Source: Urechidicola croceus
GTDB lineage: Bacteria > Bacteroidota > Bacteroidia > Flavobacteriales > Flavobacteriaceae
Reading direction: 5' to 3'
Length of the DNA: 64,000 nucleotides
Assembly (NCBI GenBank): GCA_905181865.1
Contig: CAJIZG010000001.1
Location: 310,001 to 374,000, forward strand
How positions within the stretch are numbered: position 1 is the first letter of the stretch; every line of letters starts with the position of its first letter. Positions 38,066 to 48,108 of the stretch are shown here, piece by piece. Under the pieces are notes generated by a model. That model was given only the letters and a program-made list of their open reading frames with translations, was not told the DNA's origin and did not search any database. The translations under genes and the position numbers were made by a program.

Positions 38066-40870
38066 ATGACCAAAAATATAGCTTCGCTAAGCCCTAAAGA
38101 AAATATCTTAATAAAAGGTGCAAAATTGCACAATCTTAAAAATATCGATGTTGCTATCCCTAGAAATAAACTTGTTGTAATCACAGGACTTTCAGGATCT
38201 GGAAAGTCTAGTTTGGCATTTGACACGTTATATGCAGAAGGACAAAGACGTTATGTAGAAAGTCTATCTTCCTACGCCAGACAATTTTTAGGAAGGTTAA
38301 ACAAACCCAACGTAGATTATATAAAAGGTATATCGCCAGCCATTGCCATTGAACAAAAGGTTAATAGTACAAATCCGAGATCTACAGTGGGCACCTCTAC
38401 TGAAATTTATGATTATTTAAAATTACTGTTTGCGCGGATTGGAAGAACAATTTCCCCTATTTCAAATAGAGAAGTAAAAAAAGATACGGTTTCAGATGTA
38501 ATTAATTATGTTAAAAAACTAGAAGAAAAAACAAAATTATTACTCTTAGCCCAAGTTCATATTCCAGAGGAAAGAAGTGTTGAAAAATCTCTTGCTATAT
38601 TAGCACAGCAAGGATATGCTAGAATTAAACGCAAAGGTGAAATAATACGAATTGAAGATTTTTCAAAAACTGTAAAATCCTCTAAAGATCCCATGGGACA
38701 TGACTTTGAATTGGTGGTTGATCGTGTTGTAGTTCAGCAAAATGAAGATTTTTACAATAGATTGGCAGACGCCGTCCAAATTGCCTTTTTTGAAGGAAAA
38801 GGTAGTTGTAGTTTGGAAAACTTAAAGACCAATACCATCACTCAATTTAGTAATTCATTTGAATTAGATGGTATGCAATTTTTGGAACCAAATACTCATT
38901 TATTTAGTTTCAATAACCCTTATGGAGCCTGTCCAACCTGTGAAGGGTATGGAGATATTATTGGAATTGATAGGGAACTTGTAATTCCAAATACTGGAAT
39001 ATCTATTTTTGAAGATGCCATTCTGCCTTGGAAGTCAGAATCTTTTAGTGAGTACAAGAATAATTTAATAGACAACGCATATAAATTTGATTTCCCTGTG
39101 CATCGCTCCTATTTTGAACTTTCAAAAGAACAAAAAGAAATACTTTGGAATGGAAATGAATATTTTAAAGGATTACATGCTTTTTTTAAGTTTTTAGAAG
39201 CCAAAAGTTATAAAATACAATACCGTGTAATGCTTTCAAGGTATAGAGGAAAAACAAAGTGTTCTTCCTGTAATGGAAGAAGACTTAGAAAAGAAACTGA
39301 CTATATTAAGGTGAGTGAAATGACCATCTCGCAAATGGTTGAACTTCCTTTAGATGAATTGCAATCCTTCTTTTTAAAGTTACACCTCGCTGAAAGTGAA
39401 TTTGAAATTTCTAAGCGACTACTGACGGAAATAAACAATAGAATATCATATTTGATCAATGTAGGTTTAGGATACTTGACTTTAAACAGAACATCAAATA
39501 CCTTATCTGGAGGTGAAAGTCAACGAATTAACCTCGCTACTTCATTGGGTAGTAGTTTAGTTGGTTCTATGTATATATTAGACGAACCCAGTATTGGACT
39601 GCACCCAAAAGATACTGAACGTTTAATTGAGGTACTCAAACATTTACGCGATCTAGGAAATACCGTAATTGTGGTGGAACATGATGAAGACATCATGAAA
39701 GCAGCCGATAAAATAATTGATATTGGACCAGAAGCAGGCACCTATGGAGGTCATATTGTTGCTGAAGGAAATTATGATGAAATATTAAAATCTGATTCCC
39801 TTACTGCCAACTATTTAAATGGTTCTGAAAAAATAGAAATTCCTAAAATAAGAAGAACTCCTACTAACTTTATAGAGATTATTGGAGCGCGACAAAACAA
39901 TCTAAAAAATATAAATGTAAAGTTTCCATTAAATGCATTGACTGTAATTACAGGAGTTTCAGGAAGTGGAAAAAGTACCTTGGTACGTAAAATTATTTAC
40001 CCAGCGTTGCAGAAAAAAATTGCTGGTTTTGGAGAGAAAGCAGGACAATTTACTTCTATCAAAGGAGACTTTAGTAAAATTGAACATATTGAATTTATAG
40101 ATCAAAACCCTATTGGTAGGTCCAGTAGATCCAATCCTGTTACCTATGTAAAAGTCTATGATGACATAAGAAGTTTATTTTCTAATCATAAGATTTCAGT
40201 CATACGGAATTATAAACCCAAACATTTTTCATTTAATGTAGAAGGAGGTCGCTGCGAAACCTGTAAAGGAGATGGTGAAGTGACGATTGAAATGCAGTTT
40301 ATGGCAGATGTTCATTTAGAATGTGATGTTTGCAAGGGTAAACGTTTTAAAAAAGAAATACTGGAAGTCAAAGTAAATGGCAAATCGATTAATGATATCC
40401 TAAATATGACTATTGATGATGCAATTCACTTTTTCAAAAACGAAAACCAGTCAAAAATATCAAGGAAACTAAAACCACTTCAAGATGTAGGATTAGGCTA
40501 TGTAACTTTAGGGCAGTCTTCTTCTACCCTATCTGGTGGGGAGGCGCAAAGAATTAAATTGGCCTCATTTTTAGTAAAAGGAACAAGACAAAGCAAGTCG
40601 TTATTCATTTTTGATGAACCTACAACAGGCTTGCACTTTCACGATATTAAAAAATTATTAAAATCCTTCAATGCACTCATTAAAAATGGACACTCCATTA
40701 TGGTCATTGAACACAATATTGAATTAATCAAATGCGCCGATTACATTATAGATCTCGGTAAAGAAGGTGGTAAAAATGGTGGTGAATTAATGTTTCAAGG
40801 GACTCCCGAAAAATTAGTGAGCACTAAAAAAAGTTTTACTGCTCACTATTTAAAGGAAAAGTTAGCGTAA
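38066..40870 (+). CDS. uvrA: Excinuclease ABC subunit A
   Basis: About 934 residues from ATG 38066 ([20 protein letters not shown]). Two ABC ATPase modules: Walker [11 protein letters not shown] near residue 37 and [13 protein letters not shown] near 637; signatures [13 protein letters not shown] and [13 protein letters not shown]. Zinc-binding pairs [10 protein letters not shown] with KCSSCNGRR, and [10 protein letters not shown] with CDVCKGKR, are present. It recognises bulky DNA lesions and loads UvrB. The insertion between the first zinc halves is short, within the normal range of UvrA. Confidence 0.96.
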
Positions 40871-40900
40871 CTTTATATACCTACTAATCATCATTCGGTA

Positions 40901-41587
40901 TTATTCTTTTGCTGCCGCTTCCTCTAAAGAAGAAAGCTGTGTTTTTGCTAATACAAATTCTGGATACAATTGAACAGCGCGCTTAAATGCAATGATAGCC
41001 TCAGCATTTTTCTTTAATTGCACTGCTATAATTCCTTCTAAATAGGCAATCGCTGGTTTTAGTTTAACATCCTGATTGTAACTAGCATTCACTTTAAATG
41101 AAATACTTATATTTTCTTCAATCGCTAAAGTGTTTGCTTTTTTTACTCCTGCATAAGCCTCTTCGAGTTTATTTGTTTCCAAATAAAGCCCTGCCAACTT
41201 ATATGCGTGATATGCTCTATTTGATTTTGATAATAATTTATCATACCCTTCAGCAGCTTTTGCCTTCGCACCAATAGACTCTAATGAAACTGTGTTCATT
41301 TCAAGTATTTCAATATTAGCTGGTTTTCTTTCCAATACATCATTGGTAACCAAAAAACAAGAAAGGTATTCTCTATTATTAAAATATAGATATGCTAGAC
41401 TATCCTTATAAACACTGGTAACGCCTTGCAATGCAATAATATCATACATTTTTGAAATAGCAACATTTTTATCTCCGTATGCTAACGCTTGCGTAATTTT
41501 TACTTTTTCTAACGCCACGCCATTCTGTGACTGTGTACTTCCTAATATTGCAACAAAAAATACTAGGGCTAATAATCGTTTATTCAT
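40901..41587 (-). CDS. Periplasmic tetratricopeptide repeat protein
   Basis: A 228-residue protein with a signal peptide (MNKRLLALVFFVAILGSTQSQ). TPR-like helical pairs are visible from ~100, with YKLAGLYLETNKLEEAYAGV and LEGIIAVQLKKNAEAIIAFK, RAVQLYPEFVLAKTQLSSLE near the end. It is probably a scaffold for protein-protein contacts in the envelope. Nothing in the context gives a specific partner. Confidence 0.8.
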   Translation of the reverse strand: MNKRLLALVFFVAILGSTQSQNGVALEKVKITQALAYGDKNVAISKMYDIIALQGVTSVYKDSLAYLYFNNREYLSCFLVTNDVLERKPANIEILEMNTVSLESIGAKAKAAEGYDKLLSKSNRAYHAYKLAGLYLETNKLEEAYAGVKKANTLAIEENISISFKVNASYNQDVKLKPAIAYLEGIIAVQLKKNAEAIIAFKRAVQLYPEFVLAKTQLSSLEEAAAKE

Positions 41588-41715
41588 TTTATGTTTTTTA
41601 AAATTTAATATTATACAATTAAAAACTAGTATGAAATTCTAATTTTTAACGTGCGCTAATGTATTAATTTGTACCCATATAACTTACTAAAACTCTCATA
41701 AAATTGAGCACAAAA

Positions 41716-41741
41716 AAAGCTTCCTTACTTAAGGAAGCTTT
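41716..41741 (-). terminator. Terminator of tRNA-His
   Basis: AAAGCTTCCTT (41716-41726) pairs with AAGGAAGCTTT (41731-41741) around a 4-base loop; on the minus strand it is followed by TTTT and GTG. It sits directly after the tRNA. Confidence 0.8.
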
Positions 41742-41742
41742 A

Positions 41743-41818
41743 TGGGTGGAAGACCGGATTCGAACCGGCGACCCTCGGTACCACAAACCGATGCTCTAAC
41801 CAACTGAGCTACAACCAC
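41743..41818 (-). tRNA. tRNA-His (GTG anticodon)
   Basis: On the minus strand GTGGTTGTAGCTCAGTTGG opens the acceptor and D arm, the anticodon loop reads TTTGTGGT, and the T arm is GCCGG TTCGAAT CCGGT. A G lies at position -1 and a C at 73, the identity pair for histidyl-tRNA synthetase. The 3' end reads CCACCCA, so a complete CCA is not clearly encoded beyond position 73. Acceptor positions 5-68 and 6-67 are T-T mismatches by my alignment. Confidence 0.92.
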
Positions 41819-41883
41819 CATGTAACTTGCGGGTGCAAATTTAGTTTTTTTTATACTTTCTGCAACACTTTTTTAATTAATTT

Positions 41884-42600
41884 TTAAAATAAATCACTCA
41901 AACTATTTATAGCGACTATTCGTTCTACATTGAATCCTTCAGCATGCTCAACACCAATCAATCTCCCTAAGTCTTGTGCTCTGTATTTAACACTCTCTAT
42001 AAAATTTTGACTAGAAATAGGAGAACTAGGTTCTTTACTGTTTGCATCGTAAAATTGAGAGCTATAGGCTAACACTGCTTCCATTTTAACGTCAATAAAC
42101 CCAGATACATCGACTACAAAGTCTGGCTCTAAATTTTTCCATTGTATATAATGATACACATATTTTGGCCTCCAATGCTCTTGTAGTGCTCCATCAACCG
42201 CTGTTTCAATCTTTCGTAATCCCGATAAAAAACAAGCATCAGAAACTAGTTTACTTCCTGTACCATGATCTATATGCCGGTCGTGTATTGCATTACACAA
42301 TACTATTTCAGGTCTATATTTTCTGATACTTTTAATAATCTCTAATTGGTGTACTTTATCGTTAATAAAGAATCCGTCAGAAAAATTCAAGTTGTCTCTC
42401 ACTACTATTCCAAGGGTTTTGGCAGCACTTGAAGCCTCTACATCTCTAATCTCAGCAGAACCGCGTGTCCCTAACTCACCTCTTGTCAAATCAACAATTC
42501 CAACCTTTTTACCCAAGGAAACTTCCTTCGCTATTGTTGCACCACAACCTAATTCAACATCATCTGGATGCGCTCCAAAAGCTAGAATATCTAATTTCAT
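41884..42600 (-). CDS. bshB1: Bacillithiol biosynthesis deacetylase BshB1
   Basis: A 238-residue LmbE-like protein. The zinc motif GAHPDDVELGCGAT is at ~9-22, VDLTRGELGTRGS (~37-49) and the histidine-rich NAIHDRHIDHGTGSKL near 113-128 complete the active site. It removes acetyl from GlcNAc-malate in bacillithiol synthesis, a thiol used by Bacteroidota. A -7 box TACCTTTG lies at 42617-42624 on the minus strand. Part of its 5' end has been copied to 43840-43942. Confidence 0.94.
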   Translation of the reverse strand: MKLDILAFGAHPDDVELGCGATIAKEVSLGKKVGIVDLTRGELGTRGSAEIRDVEASSAAKTLGIVVRDNLNFSDGFFINDKVHQLEIIKSIRKYRPEIVLCNAIHDRHIDHGTGSKLVSDACFLSGLRKIETAVDGALQEHWRPKYVYHYIQWKNLEPDFVVDVSGFIDVKMEAVLAYSSQFYDANSKEPSSPISSQNFIESVKYRAQDLGRLIGVEHAEGFNVERIVAINSLSDLF

Positions 42601-42616
42601 ATTTTTCTGTTTACGA

Positions 42617-42624
42617 CAAAGGTA
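42617..42624 (-). promoter_or_regulatory. -7 box for bshB1
   Basis: TACCTTTG on the minus strand, 16 bp upstream of the start codon. The duplicated fragment at 43959-43966 carries the same box. Confidence 0.55.
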
Positions 42625-42785
42625 CTAAAATTACACATTAATCTTAATTACTCATTTTTTATAATGAATGGTACTAAAAACACAATAAATGGTAGATTAC
42701 CTATCAATTTGTTTGTTTGATTAAATTATTTAATATACATTTACTGCGTAATTAAGTATAATATTAACATCAACCCCTGCAGAAG

Positions 42786-43697
42786 ATGAAAACCAAAATC
42801 CTACTATCGCTACTTTTATTAGTTTGTTCAAGCACAATTTTCGCAACAGTTTCTGAGATCGAAAAAAACGTCTTGGTTGACTTATATAATTTAACTGAAG
42901 GAAAGAACTGGAATACTTCTTGGGATTTAAATCAACCTGTAGAAAACTGGTATGGTGTTACTGTTGAAAACGACAAAGTAGTCCGTCTCGATTTAAGTAT
43001 TAATAATTTAAAAGGAAATTTGCCTATTAATTTGGGAGATCTTACTTTCCTTGAATCTATTAATTTACACATGAACAACTTAACAGGTGCGATACCTTCT
43101 AGTTTAGGGAGTATTTTAACACTTAAGGAATTAAACATGTCTTTCAATCAATTGAATGGTGAAATTCCTAGTACTATTGGAGATGCTCATTCATTGGAAA
43201 TTATTTCTTTATTCATGAATCGTCTTGAAGGGGCTATTCCGAATGAAATAGGAGGATTAACACAACTTCAAAAATTAGTTCTTTACAACAACAACTTAAG
43301 TGGTTCTATTCCTAATGAAATTGGTGCATTAGAGAAACTAGTAGAATTACATTTAAGCAGTAATAGATTTAGCGGAATCTTGCCATTAGAAATTACAAAC
43401 CTAAAAGAGTTAAAAATATTAAGTGTCTTTGATAATTACATGATTGGTATTATTCCAAATGAAATTGGTCAAATGACAAATTTACAAGAGTTATCATTAG
43501 CGAACAATTCTTTTGAAGGACCGGTTCCTTCGGAAATCGCACAACTATCAAGACTTGAAACTCTTATGTTAAATAATAACTTTTTTGATCCAGGATTCGA
43601 TCAAAATATTGGGTTGATTCCTACATTAAAGAATTTTAATTTCATCTCCACTCCAAGAGATGCTAAAGTTATTCAAAATGCACTTGCATTTGATTAA
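42786..43697 (+). CDS. Secreted leucine-rich repeat protein (plant-type LRR), copy 1
   Basis: A 303-residue protein with a signal peptide (MKTKILLSLLLLVCSSTIFA). An N-terminal cap (ALxxLYNxTxGxNW-like LVDLYNLTEGKNWNTSWDLN) is followed by about nine plant-type repeats of the form LxxLxLxxNxLxGxIPxxLGxL (for example LKELNMSFNQLNGEIPSTIG, ~107-135), and a C-terminal cap ends at AFD. The family mediates protein or ligand binding; the partner is unknown. It is the intact member of a tandem pair. Its -7 box is degraded (TACATTTA, 42736-42743) relative to that of copy 2. Confidence 0.85.
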   Translation: MKTKILLSLLLLVCSSTIFATVSEIEKNVLVDLYNLTEGKNWNTSWDLNQPVENWYGVTVENDKVVRLDLSINNLKGNLPINLGDLTFLESINLHMNNLTGAIPSSLGSILTLKELNMSFNQLNGEIPSTIGDAHSLEIISLFMNRLEGAIPNEIGGLTQLQKLVLYNNNLSGSIPNEIGALEKLVELHLSSNRFSGILPLEITNLKELKILSVFDNYMIGIIPNEIGQMTNLQELSLANNSFEGPVPSEIAQLSRLETLMLNNNFFDPGFDQNIGLIPTLKNFNFISTPRDAKVIQNALAFD

Positions 43698-43733
43698 ATT
43701 AGAATCCTTTTTTGATATAAAAACTATAGGTAT

Positions 43734-43848
43734 TTACCCTTTTATCCAATCTATAATTGAAGCATCAGCTAGTAAAGTAGTCAACTAAATTAATACTTTA
43801 ACGAATGGATCCTTTATGCCAATCAAGTATTTCTGAAAGTTACAATCT
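43734..43848 (-). pseudogene. 3' fragment of glutathione peroxidase gene at the duplication junction
   Basis: From the stop equivalent at 43734-43736, the sequence parallels 44877-44988, the last ~37 codons of the intact peroxidase gene (shared TTACCCTTTTATCCAATCTA and AATCAAGTATTTCTGAAAGT). It has several substitutions and an indel-rich middle and ends abruptly at 43848, where bshB1 sequence begins. It is a dead by-product of the duplication. Confidence 0.85.
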
Positions 43849-43942
43849 TTTTACCCAAGGAAACTTCCTTCGCTATTGTTGCACCAAAACCTAATTTAAC
43901 ATCATCTGGATACGCTCCAAAAGCTAGAATATCTAATTTCAT
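43823..43942 (-). pseudogene. 5' fragment of bshB1 at the duplication junction
   Basis: From ATG 43942 it reads MKLDILAFGAYPDDVKLGFG, then ATIAKEVSLGKKIV, matching the first 34 residues of BshB1 with substitutions, including His to Tyr in the zinc motif (AHPDD to AYPDD). After the junction at 43848-43840 the frame enters peroxidase sequence out of frame and stops at 43823. A promoter box (43959-43966) remains, so a transcript is possible. Confidence 0.85.
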
Positions 43943-44077
43943 ATTTTTCTATTTATGACAAAGGTACCAAAATCACACATTACTATTAATACCTTGTTTT
44001 TTACAATGAATGGTTATAAAAATATAATAAATGGTAAATTATATATAAATTTGTTTGGTTGATTAAATTATTTCACA

Positions 44078-44085
44078 TATATTTG
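44078..44085 (+). promoter_or_regulatory. -7 box for LRR copy 2
   Basis: TATATTTG fits TAnnTTTG and lies 36 bp upstream of the ATG at 44122. The equivalent position before copy 1 (42736-42743) reads TACATTTA. Confidence 0.55.
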
Positions 44086-44121
44086 TTACGTAATTAAGTA
44101 TAATATTAATCCCTACAAAAG

Positions 44122-44793
44122 ATGAAAACTAGAATCCTACTATCGCTACTTTTATTAGTTTGTTCAAACGCAATTTTCGCAATAGTTTCTGAGATTGAAA
44201 AAAAAGTTTTGGTTGACTTATATAATTCAACTGAAGGAAATAACTGGAATACCTCATGGGATTTAAATGAACCTGTAGAAAGTTGGTATGGTGTTACTGT
44301 TGAAAACGACAAAGTAGTCCGTCTTGATTTAAGTATTAATAATTTAAAAGGAAATTTGCCTATTAATTTAGGAGATCTTACTTCCCTTCAATCTATTAAT
44401 TTACATAAGAATAACTTAACAGGTAAGATCCCTTCTAGTTTAGGGAGTATTTTAACACTTAAGGAATTAAATATGTCTTTCAATCAATTGAATGGTGAAA
44501 TTCCTCGTACTATTGGAAATGCGCATTCATTGGAAATTATTTCTTTATTCATGAATCGTCTTGAAGGGGCTATTCCAATTGAAATAGGAGGATTAACACA
44601 ACTTAAAAAATTAGTTCTTTACAATAATAACTTAAGTGGCTCTATTCCTAATGAAATTGGTGCATTAGAGAACCTAATAGAATTACATTTAAGTCGTAAT
44701 AGATTTAGTGGAATCGTGCCATTGGAAATTACAAACCTAAAAGGGTTAAAAATATTAAGTGTATTTGACAATTATATGATTGGTATTAATTAA
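44122..44793 (+). CDS. Secreted leucine-rich repeat protein, copy 2 (C-terminally truncated)
   Basis: A 223-residue protein almost collinear with copy 1 (signal peptide MKTRILLSLLLLVCSNAIFA, same cap and first six to seven LRRs). After LKILSVFDNYMIGI the sequence stops with N-TAA, whereas copy 1 continues for 80 residues; the nucleotides show a deletion joining GGTATT to the 3' flank. The last repeats and the C-terminal cap are missing, so folding may be impaired, but the frame before that is free of stops. Confidence 0.78.
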   Translation: MKTRILLSLLLLVCSNAIFAIVSEIEKKVLVDLYNSTEGNNWNTSWDLNEPVESWYGVTVENDKVVRLDLSINNLKGNLPINLGDLTSLQSINLHKNNLTGKIPSSLGSILTLKELNMSFNQLNGEIPRTIGNAHSLEIISLFMNRLEGAIPIEIGGLTQLKKLVLYNNNLSGSIPNEIGALENLIELHLSRNRFSGIVPLEITNLKGLKILSVFDNYMIGIN

Positions 44794-44825
44794 ACTAGAA
44801 TCCTTTGTTATAGTAATCAAAAAAA

Positions 44826-44850
44826 GAGAACCATACACAGTATGGTTCTC
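44826..44850. terminator. Bidirectional terminator between LRR copy 2 and glutathione peroxidase
   Basis: GAGAACCATAC (44826-44836), loop ACA, GTATGGTTCTC (44840-44850), preceded by an A-tract and followed by TTTTTT, so it can serve both convergent genes. The matching place after LRR copy 1 has lost the hairpin. Confidence 0.85.
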
Positions 44851-44876
44851 TTTTTTGATATAAAGACTATAGGTAT

Positions 44877-45458
44877 TTACCCTTTTATCCAATCTATAAT
44901 TGAAGTATCATCTGGTAAAGTCTTCGGAGAAATTACTTTGACTAATTGACCCTTTGCGTCAATCAAGTATTTCTGAAAGTTCCAACCTACTTCTGAATCT
45001 TGTAAACCATTTCTATTCTTAGACGTTAGAAATTGATACATATCATGCATGTCATCTCCTTTTACAGATATTTTTGACATCATAGGAAACGAAACATCGT
45101 AATTTTCTTTACAAAAAGAAGCTATTTCTTGGTTTGTTCCTGGTTCTTGTCCCCCAAAATTATTTGCAGGAAAACCAACAATTACAAAATCATCATTCTT
45201 ATATAATTCATATAAGGCTTGTAATCGCTTATATTGTGGAGTAAGTCCGCATTTAGATGCCGTATTTACTACCATAATTTTTTTACCTTGCAATGATGAG
45301 AAATCAAATTCATCTCCATATAAATCATTTACTTTAAACTGATAAATATTTTCTGAATTTATGCCTACTTCAGATTCAGGTGTTTTTATTTCTTTCTTCG
45401 AATTATTACAACTTGTCATAATAATTGATAGACACATTATACCGAGTATTTTTTTCAT
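44877..45458 (-). CDS. Glutathione peroxidase family lipoprotein (cysteine type)
   Basis: A 193-residue protein with a lipoprotein signal (MKKILGIMCLSIIMTSC, Cys17). The thioredoxin-like domain has the active-site VNTASKCGLTPQY (Cys70, in place of selenocysteine), FPANNFGGQEPG, and VGWNFQKYLID with the conserved Trp and Asn. It reduces peroxides, probably with thioredoxin-like donors, in the periplasm or inner face of the outer membrane. Its 3' end was copied to 43734-43848. Confidence 0.92.
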   Translation of the reverse strand: MKKILGIMCLSIIMTSCNNSKKEIKTPESEVGINSENIYQFKVNDLYGDEFDFSSLQGKKIMVVNTASKCGLTPQYKRLQALYELYKNDDFVIVGFPANNFGGQEPGTNQEIASFCKENYDVSFPMMSKISVKGDDMHDMYQFLTSKNRNGLQDSEVGWNFQKYLIDAKGQLVKVISPKTLPDDTSIIDWIKG

Positions 45459-45549
45459 ATTAAATTGATTTTATAAATGATTTTAAACCGCAATTTACAA
45501 AAAAGAAAAATCAAGTCATGAAATTATTTATATTCACTATTTTCGCTCT

Positions 45550-46302
45550 ATGATCAGAGTGATAATAATTGGTAGTGGTAATGTGGGAATTCATCTGGCA
45601 CGTGTTTTTCTAAATACTCGAGAAATTAAATTAGTTCAAGTTTATAATAGAACTCTTGAACCCCTAAAAAAAATTGAGGGTAAAGTATCTACTACAACTA
45701 ATTTAAATGAACTAAAAGATGCAGATATTTACATTATTTCTGTATCAGACAATTCTATAGAAAATATTTCAAAGAGTTTAAATTTTACTGCTAAATTAGT
45801 AGTCCATACATCGGGAAGTACCCACTTAAACACTTTAAACAGTTCCAATAGAAAAGGGGTTTTTTATCCTTTGCAGACTTTTTCTAAAAATAAAGAACTC
45901 TCTTTTAAAGGCATTCCAATCTGTATAGAATCAGAAAACAATAATGACCTTATGCTCCTAAAATCATTAGCTTCGCTGATTTCAAATAATGTCTATATTT
46001 TGGATTCTAAACAAAGATTTAACATGCATATAAGTGCTGTATTTGTAAATAATTTTGTGAATAACTTGTATTATATAGGAAATGAAATTTGCGAAAAAAA
46101 TAATATCCCTGTTGAAATTTTACATCCGTTAATTAAAGAAACAGCAGAGAAAGTACAAACACTTGCGCCCAAAGATGCTCAAACAGGACCTGCTAGAAGA
46201 AAAGATACTGCTACTATTGAAAGTCAACTTAAGCAACTTACAGAGCATCATGCAGCTATTTATAAGATTTTAACAGACTCTATTATTAAAACATATTCTT
46301 AA
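45550..46302 (+). CDS. Rossmann-like and DUF2520 domain protein
   Basis: A 250-residue protein with an NAD(P)-type N-terminus VIIIGSGNVGIHLARVF and DIYIISVSDNSI, then a helical DUF2520 domain containing FYPLQTFSK, FVNNFVNNLYYIGNEIC and TGPARRKD. The family resembles ketopantoate or pyrroline-carboxylate reductases, but its reaction is not established. It precedes kdsC with one base between stop and start, so the two are coupled. Confidence 0.85.
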   Translation: MIRVIIIGSGNVGIHLARVFLNTREIKLVQVYNRTLEPLKKIEGKVSTTTNLNELKDADIYIISVSDNSIENISKSLNFTAKLVVHTSGSTHLNTLNSSNRKGVFYPLQTFSKNKELSFKGIPICIESENNNDLMLLKSLASLISNNVYILDSKQRFNMHISAVFVNNFVNNLYYIGNEICEKNNIPVEILHPLIKETAEKVQTLAPKDAQTGPARRKDTATIESQLKQLTEHHAAIYKILTDSIIKTYS

Positions 46303-46303
46303 A

Positions 46304-46831
46304 ATGGAAAAAAGTTACAAAGAAATTATGCCTGCAATAAAAACGTTTATTTTTGATGTAGATGGTGTTTTAACAGATGGAAATGTTCATGTTTTTGAAA
46401 ATGGACAATTGGTAAGGCAAATGAATATTAGGGATGGATACGCACTAAAAACTGCTGTTGATGCAGGATATAGAGTCTGTATAATTTCAGGTGGCAGCAA
46501 TGAAGGAGTCCGTAAAAGATTGAAAGGATTAGGTTTGACAGATATATATTTAGGTGCGCATTATAAAATAGATCAATTCACCCAAATAGTGGACAAATAC
46601 CAATTAAATGCAAGCGAAATATTATATATGGGAGATGATATCCCTGATTATCCTGTAATGGAACTTGTTGGATTACCCTGTTGTCCTAACAATGCAGCTC
46701 AAGAAATTCAGAACATCTCAAAATACATATCACACAAAAATGGGGGTGATGGTTGCGCAAGAGATGTCATTGAACAAGTATTAAAAGTTCAAGGGAAATG
46801 GAACGATACATTCAATGCTAAATATGACTAA
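46304..46831 (+). CDS. kdsC: 3-deoxy-D-manno-octulosonate 8-phosphate phosphatase (KdsC)
   Basis: A 175-residue HAD phosphatase without cap domain. TFIFDVDGVLTDGNVHV carries the nucleophile Asp18 and Asp20, IISGGSNEGVRKRLKGLG the second and third motifs, and YMGDDIPDYPVME the acidic motif IV. It dephosphorylates Kdo 8-phosphate in LPS inner-core synthesis. KdsD of the same pathway is at 13 kb. A weak hairpin follows at 46870-46894. Confidence 0.93.
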   Translation: MEKSYKEIMPAIKTFIFDVDGVLTDGNVHVFENGQLVRQMNIRDGYALKTAVDAGYRVCIISGGSNEGVRKRLKGLGLTDIYLGAHYKIDQFTQIVDKYQLNASEILYMGDDIPDYPVMELVGLPCCPNNAAQEIQNISKYISHKNGGDGCARDVIEQVLKVQGKWNDTFNAKYD

Positions 46832-46869
46832 GACCCGGCTAATTCGCCGTTTGACTATTCCAAAAATTA

Positions 46870-46894
46870 AAGACACATTAAATTAAAGTGTCTT
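46870..46894 (+). terminator. Possible terminator after kdsC
   Basis: AAGACAC (46870-46876) pairs with GTGTCTT (46888-46894) around an AT-rich loop; the following sequence has only a short T-rich stretch, so it is a weak call. Confidence 0.45.
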
Positions 46895-46999
46895 AGTATC
46901 TTTCCAAATCATGCACATTTCCGTCAGCCAATAAACCAAATAGAACTTTTGGGCATCGTAGTTCTGCATTATAAAAATGAAGTAGCTCCTAATTAAATT

Positions 47000-47007
47000 T
47001 ATCTTTG
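47000..47007 (+). promoter_or_regulatory. -7 box for the ketoacyl synthase gene
   Basis: TATCTTTG fits TAnnTTTG, 18 bp upstream of ATG 47026. It overlaps the longer in-frame start at 47005, which is therefore unlikely. Confidence 0.6.
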
Positions 47008-47025
47008 TTAAACAAGCCAAAATAT

Positions 47026-48108
47026 ATGAGTCTTCAAACCTATAGTATTTTCACCGGAACTGGAAGTTATATTCCTACACGTTGCATTAAAAATCAAGAT
47101 TTTTTGAATCATACGTTTTATGAAAAGAACGGTGAACCAATAAGAAAATCAAATCAAGAAATTATTGAAAAATTTGAGGAGATTACAACGATAAAGGAAC
47201 GTCGATATGTTACAGATGATCTAAATACTTCTGACATCGCTTATTTATCTGCTGAAAAAGCCATTAAATCCGCCAACATTAGTAAGGAATCATTAGATTA
47301 TATTATAGTAGCTCATAATTTTGGGGATACCACTCCTTCAAATAAACAAGTTGATCTTATGCCAAGTTTGGCATCTCGTGTTAAGTATAAACTAAAGATC
47401 AAAAATCCTAACACGGTTGCATATGATCTACCATTCGGATGTCCAGGTTGGGTTCAAGCTATAATTCAAGCAGATTATTATATAAAATCTGGTGATGCAA
47501 AAAAAATTCTAGTTATTGGTTCAGATGTTTTATCTAGAGTAACAGATCCTCATGATCGTGACAGTATGATTTATGCTGATGGTGCTGGAGCAGTTATATT
47601 AGAAGCTAAAGAAAGTACTACTCCGGTTGGAATTCTAGGGCACAAGACAAGGTCTGATACTTATTTTCATTCCCAACTACTCGTTATGGGTGATTCTTAC
47701 AAAAAAGATGATCTTACAGAAAATGAATTATATTTGAAAATGAATGGAAGAAGACTATACCAATACGCTCTAGAAACGGTGCCACAGAGTGTAAAGGAGT
47801 GTTTGGACAAAATTGGAATTAATCCAAAGGATATTAAGAAGTTACTAATTCATCAAGCAAATGGTAAAATGGATGATGCTATTTTACAGCGACTCTTTGA
47901 TCTTTATGGTGAAAAAAATATCCCAAAAGATATTATGCCAATGACTATTTCTACACTTGGAAATTCTTCTGTGGCGACCATACCTACATTATTAGATCTT
48001 ATTTTAAAAGGTGAATTACCTAAACACTCTATAAATAAGAGTGATCTCATTATTTTTGCTTCTGTAGGAGCTGGTATGAATATTAGTACTTTTATTTATA
48101 AATCTTAA
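47026..48108 (+). CDS. 3-oxoacyl-ACP synthase III family protein
   Basis: A 360-residue thiolase-fold enzyme. The catalytic triad is visible: Cys139 in DLPFGCPGWVQ, His276 in LLIHQANGKMDDA and Asn313 in TLGNSSVAT. DGAGAVILEA near 185-194 is also typical. It condenses acetyl- or other acyl-CoA with malonyl-ACP; the genomic setting is not a fatty-acid operon, so it may be a second FabH-like enzyme with another acyl substrate. It overlaps pcm by 4 bp, tail to tail. Confidence 0.9.
   Translation: MSLQTYSIFTGTGSYIPTRCIKNQDFLNHTFYEKNGEPIRKSNQEIIEKFEEITTIKERRYVTDDLNTSDIAYLSAEKAIKSANISKESLDYIIVAHNFGDTTPSNKQVDLMPSLASRVKYKLKIKNPNTVAYDLPFGCPGWVQAIIQADYYIKSGDAKKILVIGSDVLSRVTDPHDRDSMIYADGAGAVILEAKESTTPVGILGHKTRSDTYFHSQLLVMGDSYKKDDLTENELYLKMNGRRLYQYALETVPQSVKECLDKIGINPKDIKKLLIHQANGKMDDAILQRLFDLYGEKNIPKDIMPMTISTLGNSSVATIPTLLDLILKGELPKHSINKSDLIIFASVGAGMNISTFIYKS

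Follow-up and report, generated by a model that had tools for sequence, protein, structure and literature searches.

In the 64-kb window, the whole stretch of DNA analyzed here, two plus-strand LRR genes (42786-43697 and 44122-44793) are enclosed by bshB1 and a glutathione-peroxidase-family gene, both on the minus strand. We put a probability of about 93% on the reading that the second LRR gene arose by a single tandem duplication at short homology, followed by drift and by separate losses in the two copies. The window lies on a 0.79-Mb contig of a genome of 3.42 Mb in 6 contigs.

Two head-to-tail units and their junction

The genes, units, edges and remnants that carry the argument are as follows.

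41884-42600, minus: bshB1, bacillithiol biosynthesis deacetylase, intact (open reading frame; NCBIfam TIGR04001, E 1.3e-87, 293 bits against a cut-off of 182.5)
42498-43839, plus: duplication unit A, 1342 bp (repeat families D1-D3 and D5; alignment)
42498-42506, plus: left ancestral breakpoint, TTCCAACCT, inside the bshB1 5' end
42786-43697, plus: LRR gene copy A, full length, 303 aa (open reading frame; Pfam LRR_1, E 4.3e-26)
43734-43839, minus: remnant of the peroxidase 3' end, with 16 of 103 aligned bases different, a 3-base length difference and an in-frame stop
43840-44979, plus: duplication unit B, 1140 bp (repeat offsets; alignment)
43840-43848, plus: duplication junction, TTACAATCT, two changes from TTCCAACCT
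43840-43942, minus: bshB1 5'-end remnant, differing at 5 of 103 bases
44122-44793, plus: LRR gene copy B, 223 aa, with an in-frame 240-bp deletion (open reading frame; repeat offsets 1336 to 1096; cut alignment)
44877-45458, minus: glutathione-peroxidase-family gene, intact (Pfam PF00255, E 1.7e-38)
44980-44988, plus: right ancestral breakpoint, TTCCAACCT, inside the 3' part of the peroxidase gene

The LRR_1 domain exceeds the Pfam cut-off of 20.6 in both copies (85.8 bits in A, 66.3 bits in B), and the start of the copy A protein resembles a signal peptide when judged by eye. A tRNA-His gene (41744-41818, minus) adjoins the 3' end of bshB1 and is the sole tRNA found in the window.

A sequence-only reading of this DNA had described two units, each holding a bshB1 5' end, an LRR gene and a peroxidase 3' end, and all of its coordinates hold. 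The units are direct head-to-tail copies that abut without a gap. In an alignment cut at the two deletions, with one base counted twice, 995 of 1094 bases (91%) are identical. Similarity extends to both gene ends, where its absence would have counted against a duplication: 43840-43942 aligns to 42498-42600 (98/103 identical) at the bshB1 start, and 43707-43839 aligns to 44850-44979 (113/130, with 3 gap columns) across the peroxidase end and the bases preceding it. Identity is 150/179 in the intergenic region and 621/667 in the shared LRR coding sequence. In an uncut global alignment, 1017/1123 bases are identical and the two deletions appear scattered, as 17 and 219 gap columns; their sizes, 47 and 240, were taken from the repeat offsets, which step from 1342 through 1336, 1096 and 1143 to 1140 along the units, together with the cut alignment, which prints 239, one base fitting either side. 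With about 9% of aligned bases differing between the copies, an assembly artefact is unlikely.

The outer edges match exactly over 9 bp, and the flanking bases differ on either side. As the sequence-only reading had it, both ancestral breakpoints carry the same nine bases and the junction copy departs from them. Breakpoints placed at random in bshB1 and the peroxidase gene share at least 9 bp in a fraction of 9.8e-5 (2,000,000 random pairs). Read from the sequence, the nine bases encode Val-Gly in BshB1 and Gly-Trp in the peroxidase, in different frames. Did the match predate the event? At the same two sites in the eight relatives that have all three genes, 2 to 6 bases are common in seven and 11 bases in one, a genome without the duplication (G009, locus L033). 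That at least 9 bp are common in only one of these eight relatives counts against our main explanation, and a match predating the event therefore cannot be demonstrated. The 9-bp match is real, yet it proves no particular enzyme route.

We propose that the 9-bp site in the peroxidase gene was joined to the same 9 bp in bshB1, on the sister chromosome or on the template strand. The copied segment extends from bshB1, of which it takes in the first 103 bp, across the divergent promoter region and the LRR gene, past the likely terminator lying between the convergent genes, and ~112 bp into the end of the peroxidase gene. No gene was broken, because each outer gene remained whole on its own side; that both are intact had been claimed from the sequence and is borne out. 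Afterwards, both gene-end fragments decayed, copy B lost 80 C-terminal codons, and copy A lost the exact -7 box and the likely terminator.

By which route might the joining have occurred? Template switching in replication, with the polymerase jumping backward on the 9 bp, is a serious possibility beside breakage and joining of sister chromosomes, although we put it at somewhat less than even odds. Either route would be expected to leave short homology at the edges, and the sequence does not separate the two; inserted or inverted pieces, possible traces of complex switching, were not seen in the alignment of A with B. A duplication mediated by an insertion sequence or long repeats on either side is extremely improbable, and we found no point in its support. 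At the settings used, no further direct repeats of at least 60 bp were reported in the window, the units themselves being the only long repeats, and the open frames of 40000-47500 look, judged by eye, like ordinary genes.

The short-homology duplication accounts less evenly for the two remnants. From half of the 16.2% divergence between the copies, 8.3 changes are expected in each; the peroxidase remnant is high (P 0.011) and the bshB1 remnant unremarkable (P 0.17), and this unevenness (16/103 over 5/103) counts against the main explanation. The bshB1 remnant retains the old ATG, reaches a stop soon past the junction, outside the peroxidase frame, and has AYPDD in place of the intact gene's AHPDD, a metal-binding motif. 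It is unlikely that either remnant yields a functional member of its protein family.

Single-copy relatives, kinship and age

A genus search with the region covered 14 genomes, the window's own among them; of the 13 others, 12 gave a match.

bshB1, a single LRR gene and the peroxidase gene in this order: G001, G002, G004, G006, G009, G011, G012, G013
bshB1 next to one LRR gene, the peroxidase match lying on a different contig: G005, G008
LRR gene, but no bshB1 in the fetched 3 kb: G003
bshB1, but no LRR match in the fetched 3 kb of a 4.6-kb contig: G007
No match: G010

Thus, the three-gene order with a single LRR gene is present in 8 of the 13 other genus genomes, and bshB1 stands beside a single LRR gene in 10 of 13; the ancestral order rests on these 10, and the three exceptions count against the main explanation. 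None of 93 fetched relative loci (13 from the genus and 80 from relatives found by bshB1, the records partly overlapping) has a match across the junction. The comparison with related loci called for by the sequence-only reading therefore comes out as predicted, and its account of a tandem duplication on a 9-bp microhomology with later drift at the junction is supported by the edges, the alignment and the relatives. When the junction stretch was searched against 299 family genomes, evenly drawn and including the window's own, 179 matched; among the matches listed, all those from other genomes start at query position 137 or beyond, that is, on the bshB1 side only.

Of the 80 loci kept from the bshB1 search, 7 have an LRR match (E below 1e-15), one LRR gene each, in Lutibacter (5) and uncultured Flavobacteriaceae (2); three are probably the same records as G009, G012 and G013. 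Judged by these seven loci, the window's organism is probably a near relative of Lutibacter. Querying named genomes with the LRR protein gave no match. In Galbibacter sp. EGI 63066 (L084, 4316-4813), a peroxidase match (75%) lies less than 200 bases from the bshB1 start, at a locus that has no LRR match; the two redox genes can therefore adjoin without an LRR gene. The duplication has so far been seen only in this genome. A literature search combining 'leucine-rich repeat' and 'Lutibacter', the sole terms tried for this locus, returned no paper.

Copies A and B are sisters with support of 1.000 in both the codon tree and the protein tree, with G002 next. Could the second LRR gene have been transferred horizontally into the locus from another strain? 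The ~9% difference between the copies would fit such an origin. The extra copy, however, has both flanking gene ends in register and one junction, and transfer would have to mimic all of this as well as the sister relationship; none of the genus genomes holds a donor nearer to B than A is, the family search having covered the junction stretch. We regard transfer as very improbable and retain a duplication within the locus.

How old is this duplication? Copies A and B are separated by a dS of 0.182 and a dN of 0.047; the ratio of 0.26 suggests constraint on the LRR protein, in one copy or in both and over part or all of the time. The raw synonymous difference (23/142.2 sites) and the raw intergenic difference (29/179) are both 16.2%, which fits one event without later conversion. 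The nearest relative stands at a dS of 1.4 to 1.5, near synonymous saturation, and the duplication is therefore younger than that split. It is an old, single event, and that split is the closest bound on its age that the relatives compared provide.

Gene conversion between the copies was considered and rejected: the longest identical run, 53 columns out of the 949 lying between the left edge and the copy B deletion, was reached in 2658 of 5000 shuffles, and the divergences agree. Nor do we claim unequal selection on the copies. Polarized with outgroups, base changes number 8 replacement and 14 synonymous in A and 14 and 9 in B, with 2 unassigned, although outgroups near saturation make this assignment rough; a Fisher test of A against B gives P 0.23 (B entered as 13 and 9, the last B codon beside the deletion being set aside). 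Amino-acid changes number 6 in A and 12 in B, with 5 unassigned.

Separate losses in the two copies

The regulatory features of the two units are the following.

42712-42743, plus: promoter region of LRR copy A, TTTG ... TACATTTA, with a -7 box one base off TAnnTTTG (motif inspection; relatives)
43959-43966, minus: duplicated -7-like box of bshB1, TACCTTTG, retained and pointing left toward copy A
44054-44085, plus: promoter-like pair of LRR copy B, TTTG-N20-TATATTTG, consensus retained
44820-44856, no strand: perfect hairpin with 17-nt arms and A and T tails, a likely two-way terminator (inverted repeat I6; folding)

Copy B has lost 80 codons in frame, from 303 to 223 aa, just before the original stop codon, which remains. 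The 240-bp step is read as a deletion in copy B because the LRR frames of relatives reach the same C-terminus as copy A: in 10 relatives they span 279 to 306 aa and share it. Two of these ten (L035 and L036) are without one inner repeat, and an eleventh (L039), at 242 aa from the first ATG, has a complete C-terminal end.

Copy A has lost 47 bp, and with them the hairpin that follows the LRR gene and that copy B retains. From the LRR stop to the peroxidase stop, the predicted folding energy is -27.1 kcal/mol in B (86 nt) and -3.1 in A (43 nt, a shorter stretch); in 8 of 8 relatives it is -19.4 to -43.8 (70 to 259 nt). The hairpin at 44820-44856 went unlisted in a simple terminator scan; calling it a terminator relies on the perfect inverted repeat and on folding.

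According to PMC9723704, the main sigma factor of one flavobacterium has TAnnTTTG as its -7 consensus. In 8 of 10 relatives, a box of this form starts 40 to 50 bases ahead of the start codon and is preceded by TTTG at a distance of 19 to 21 bases; the pair arises in 0.2% of single-base shuffles of the two intergenic stretches. The exact box is absent from the other two (L031 and L038), and its loss in copy A therefore need not mean a loss of expression. The bshB1 -7-like box is present in both copies, without a recognized upstream box. A scan with the E. coli consensus found fewer promoter sites than in shuffles.

Upstream of the LRR promoter in both units lies a direct repeat, AATGGT-N15-AATGGT, with a 21-base period (42667-42693 and 44009-44035), which by eye is also present in relatives L031, L033 and L034. 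The pair occurs at 7 exact places in the window's own genome, two of them the window copies, against 2 for a reversed control, and may possibly be a regulator site. The most similar other pair, judged by eye, lies elsewhere in this genome (C3; L137, 1501-1527) within ~1.5 kb without a frame of at least 60 aa; that stretch is flanked by the start of a GTPase gene, presumably YchF-like, and by a 338-aa frame. An AATGGT regulon is not claimed, as the L137 pair does not adjoin the start of a long gene.

The sequence-only reading had held that only the LRR gene was effectively duplicated. The duplication of the LRR gene stands; the word only, and with it a simple doubling, does not, since the divergent promoter region was duplicated too, B is without 80 codons, and A has lost the consensus -7 box along with its likely terminator. 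Neither copy retained the whole ancestral unit. These losses may alter expression. The decay might even be complementary and have turned the copies into one split unit: terminator-less A, which encodes the whole protein, would be read through into B, which has the consensus promoter, the terminator and the short LRR protein, while the duplicated bshB1 promoter would fire unterminated leftward antisense transcription across A. We consider such a unit unlikely.

Known duplications and the fate of this one

The locus has head-to-tail copies, a junction of short identity formed by the outer ends, and a single-copy ancestor without the junction, the marks of a short-junction tandem duplication. Such events are known in bacteria, for example among spontaneous rearrangements in Salmonella (PMC3411829). 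There, 5 of 8 tested duplications were verified, and the microhomology cut-off deduced for true duplications was at least 11 bp; the one 9-bp duplication candidate in the table is unverified by probe, a point against 9 bp as typical (PMC3411829). As in the Salmonella duplications, a short shared sequence joins the present copies, and long flanking repeats are absent. The Salmonella duplications arose newly in culture (PMC3411829), whereas this one is old, was found in a sequenced genome, has diverged by ~9% and comprises copies with different losses. In TDAH, an engineered tandem duplication, 9-bp microhomology borders led by illegitimate recombination to tandem copies, although its authors state that microhomology was unnecessary in their own earlier study (PMC11111574). 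The 9-bp border sequences and the tandem copies are as in TDAH, but that was a selected, designed construct (PMC11111574), and this is a natural locus with no known selection.

The rearrangement is of a known, ordinary kind and reveals no new mechanism. What is added to the earlier description is the evidence from relatives and the differing losses in the two copies. Why, then, does the locus merit attention? Bacterial tandem duplications are usually lost quickly. This locus still shows both parental edges and the junction along with two dead gene fragments, and it has a single-copy outgroup; as a fossil of one microhomology duplication it is unusually complete. Its interest lies in the legibility of the event, and the locus shows the long-term fate of a bacterial tandem duplication.
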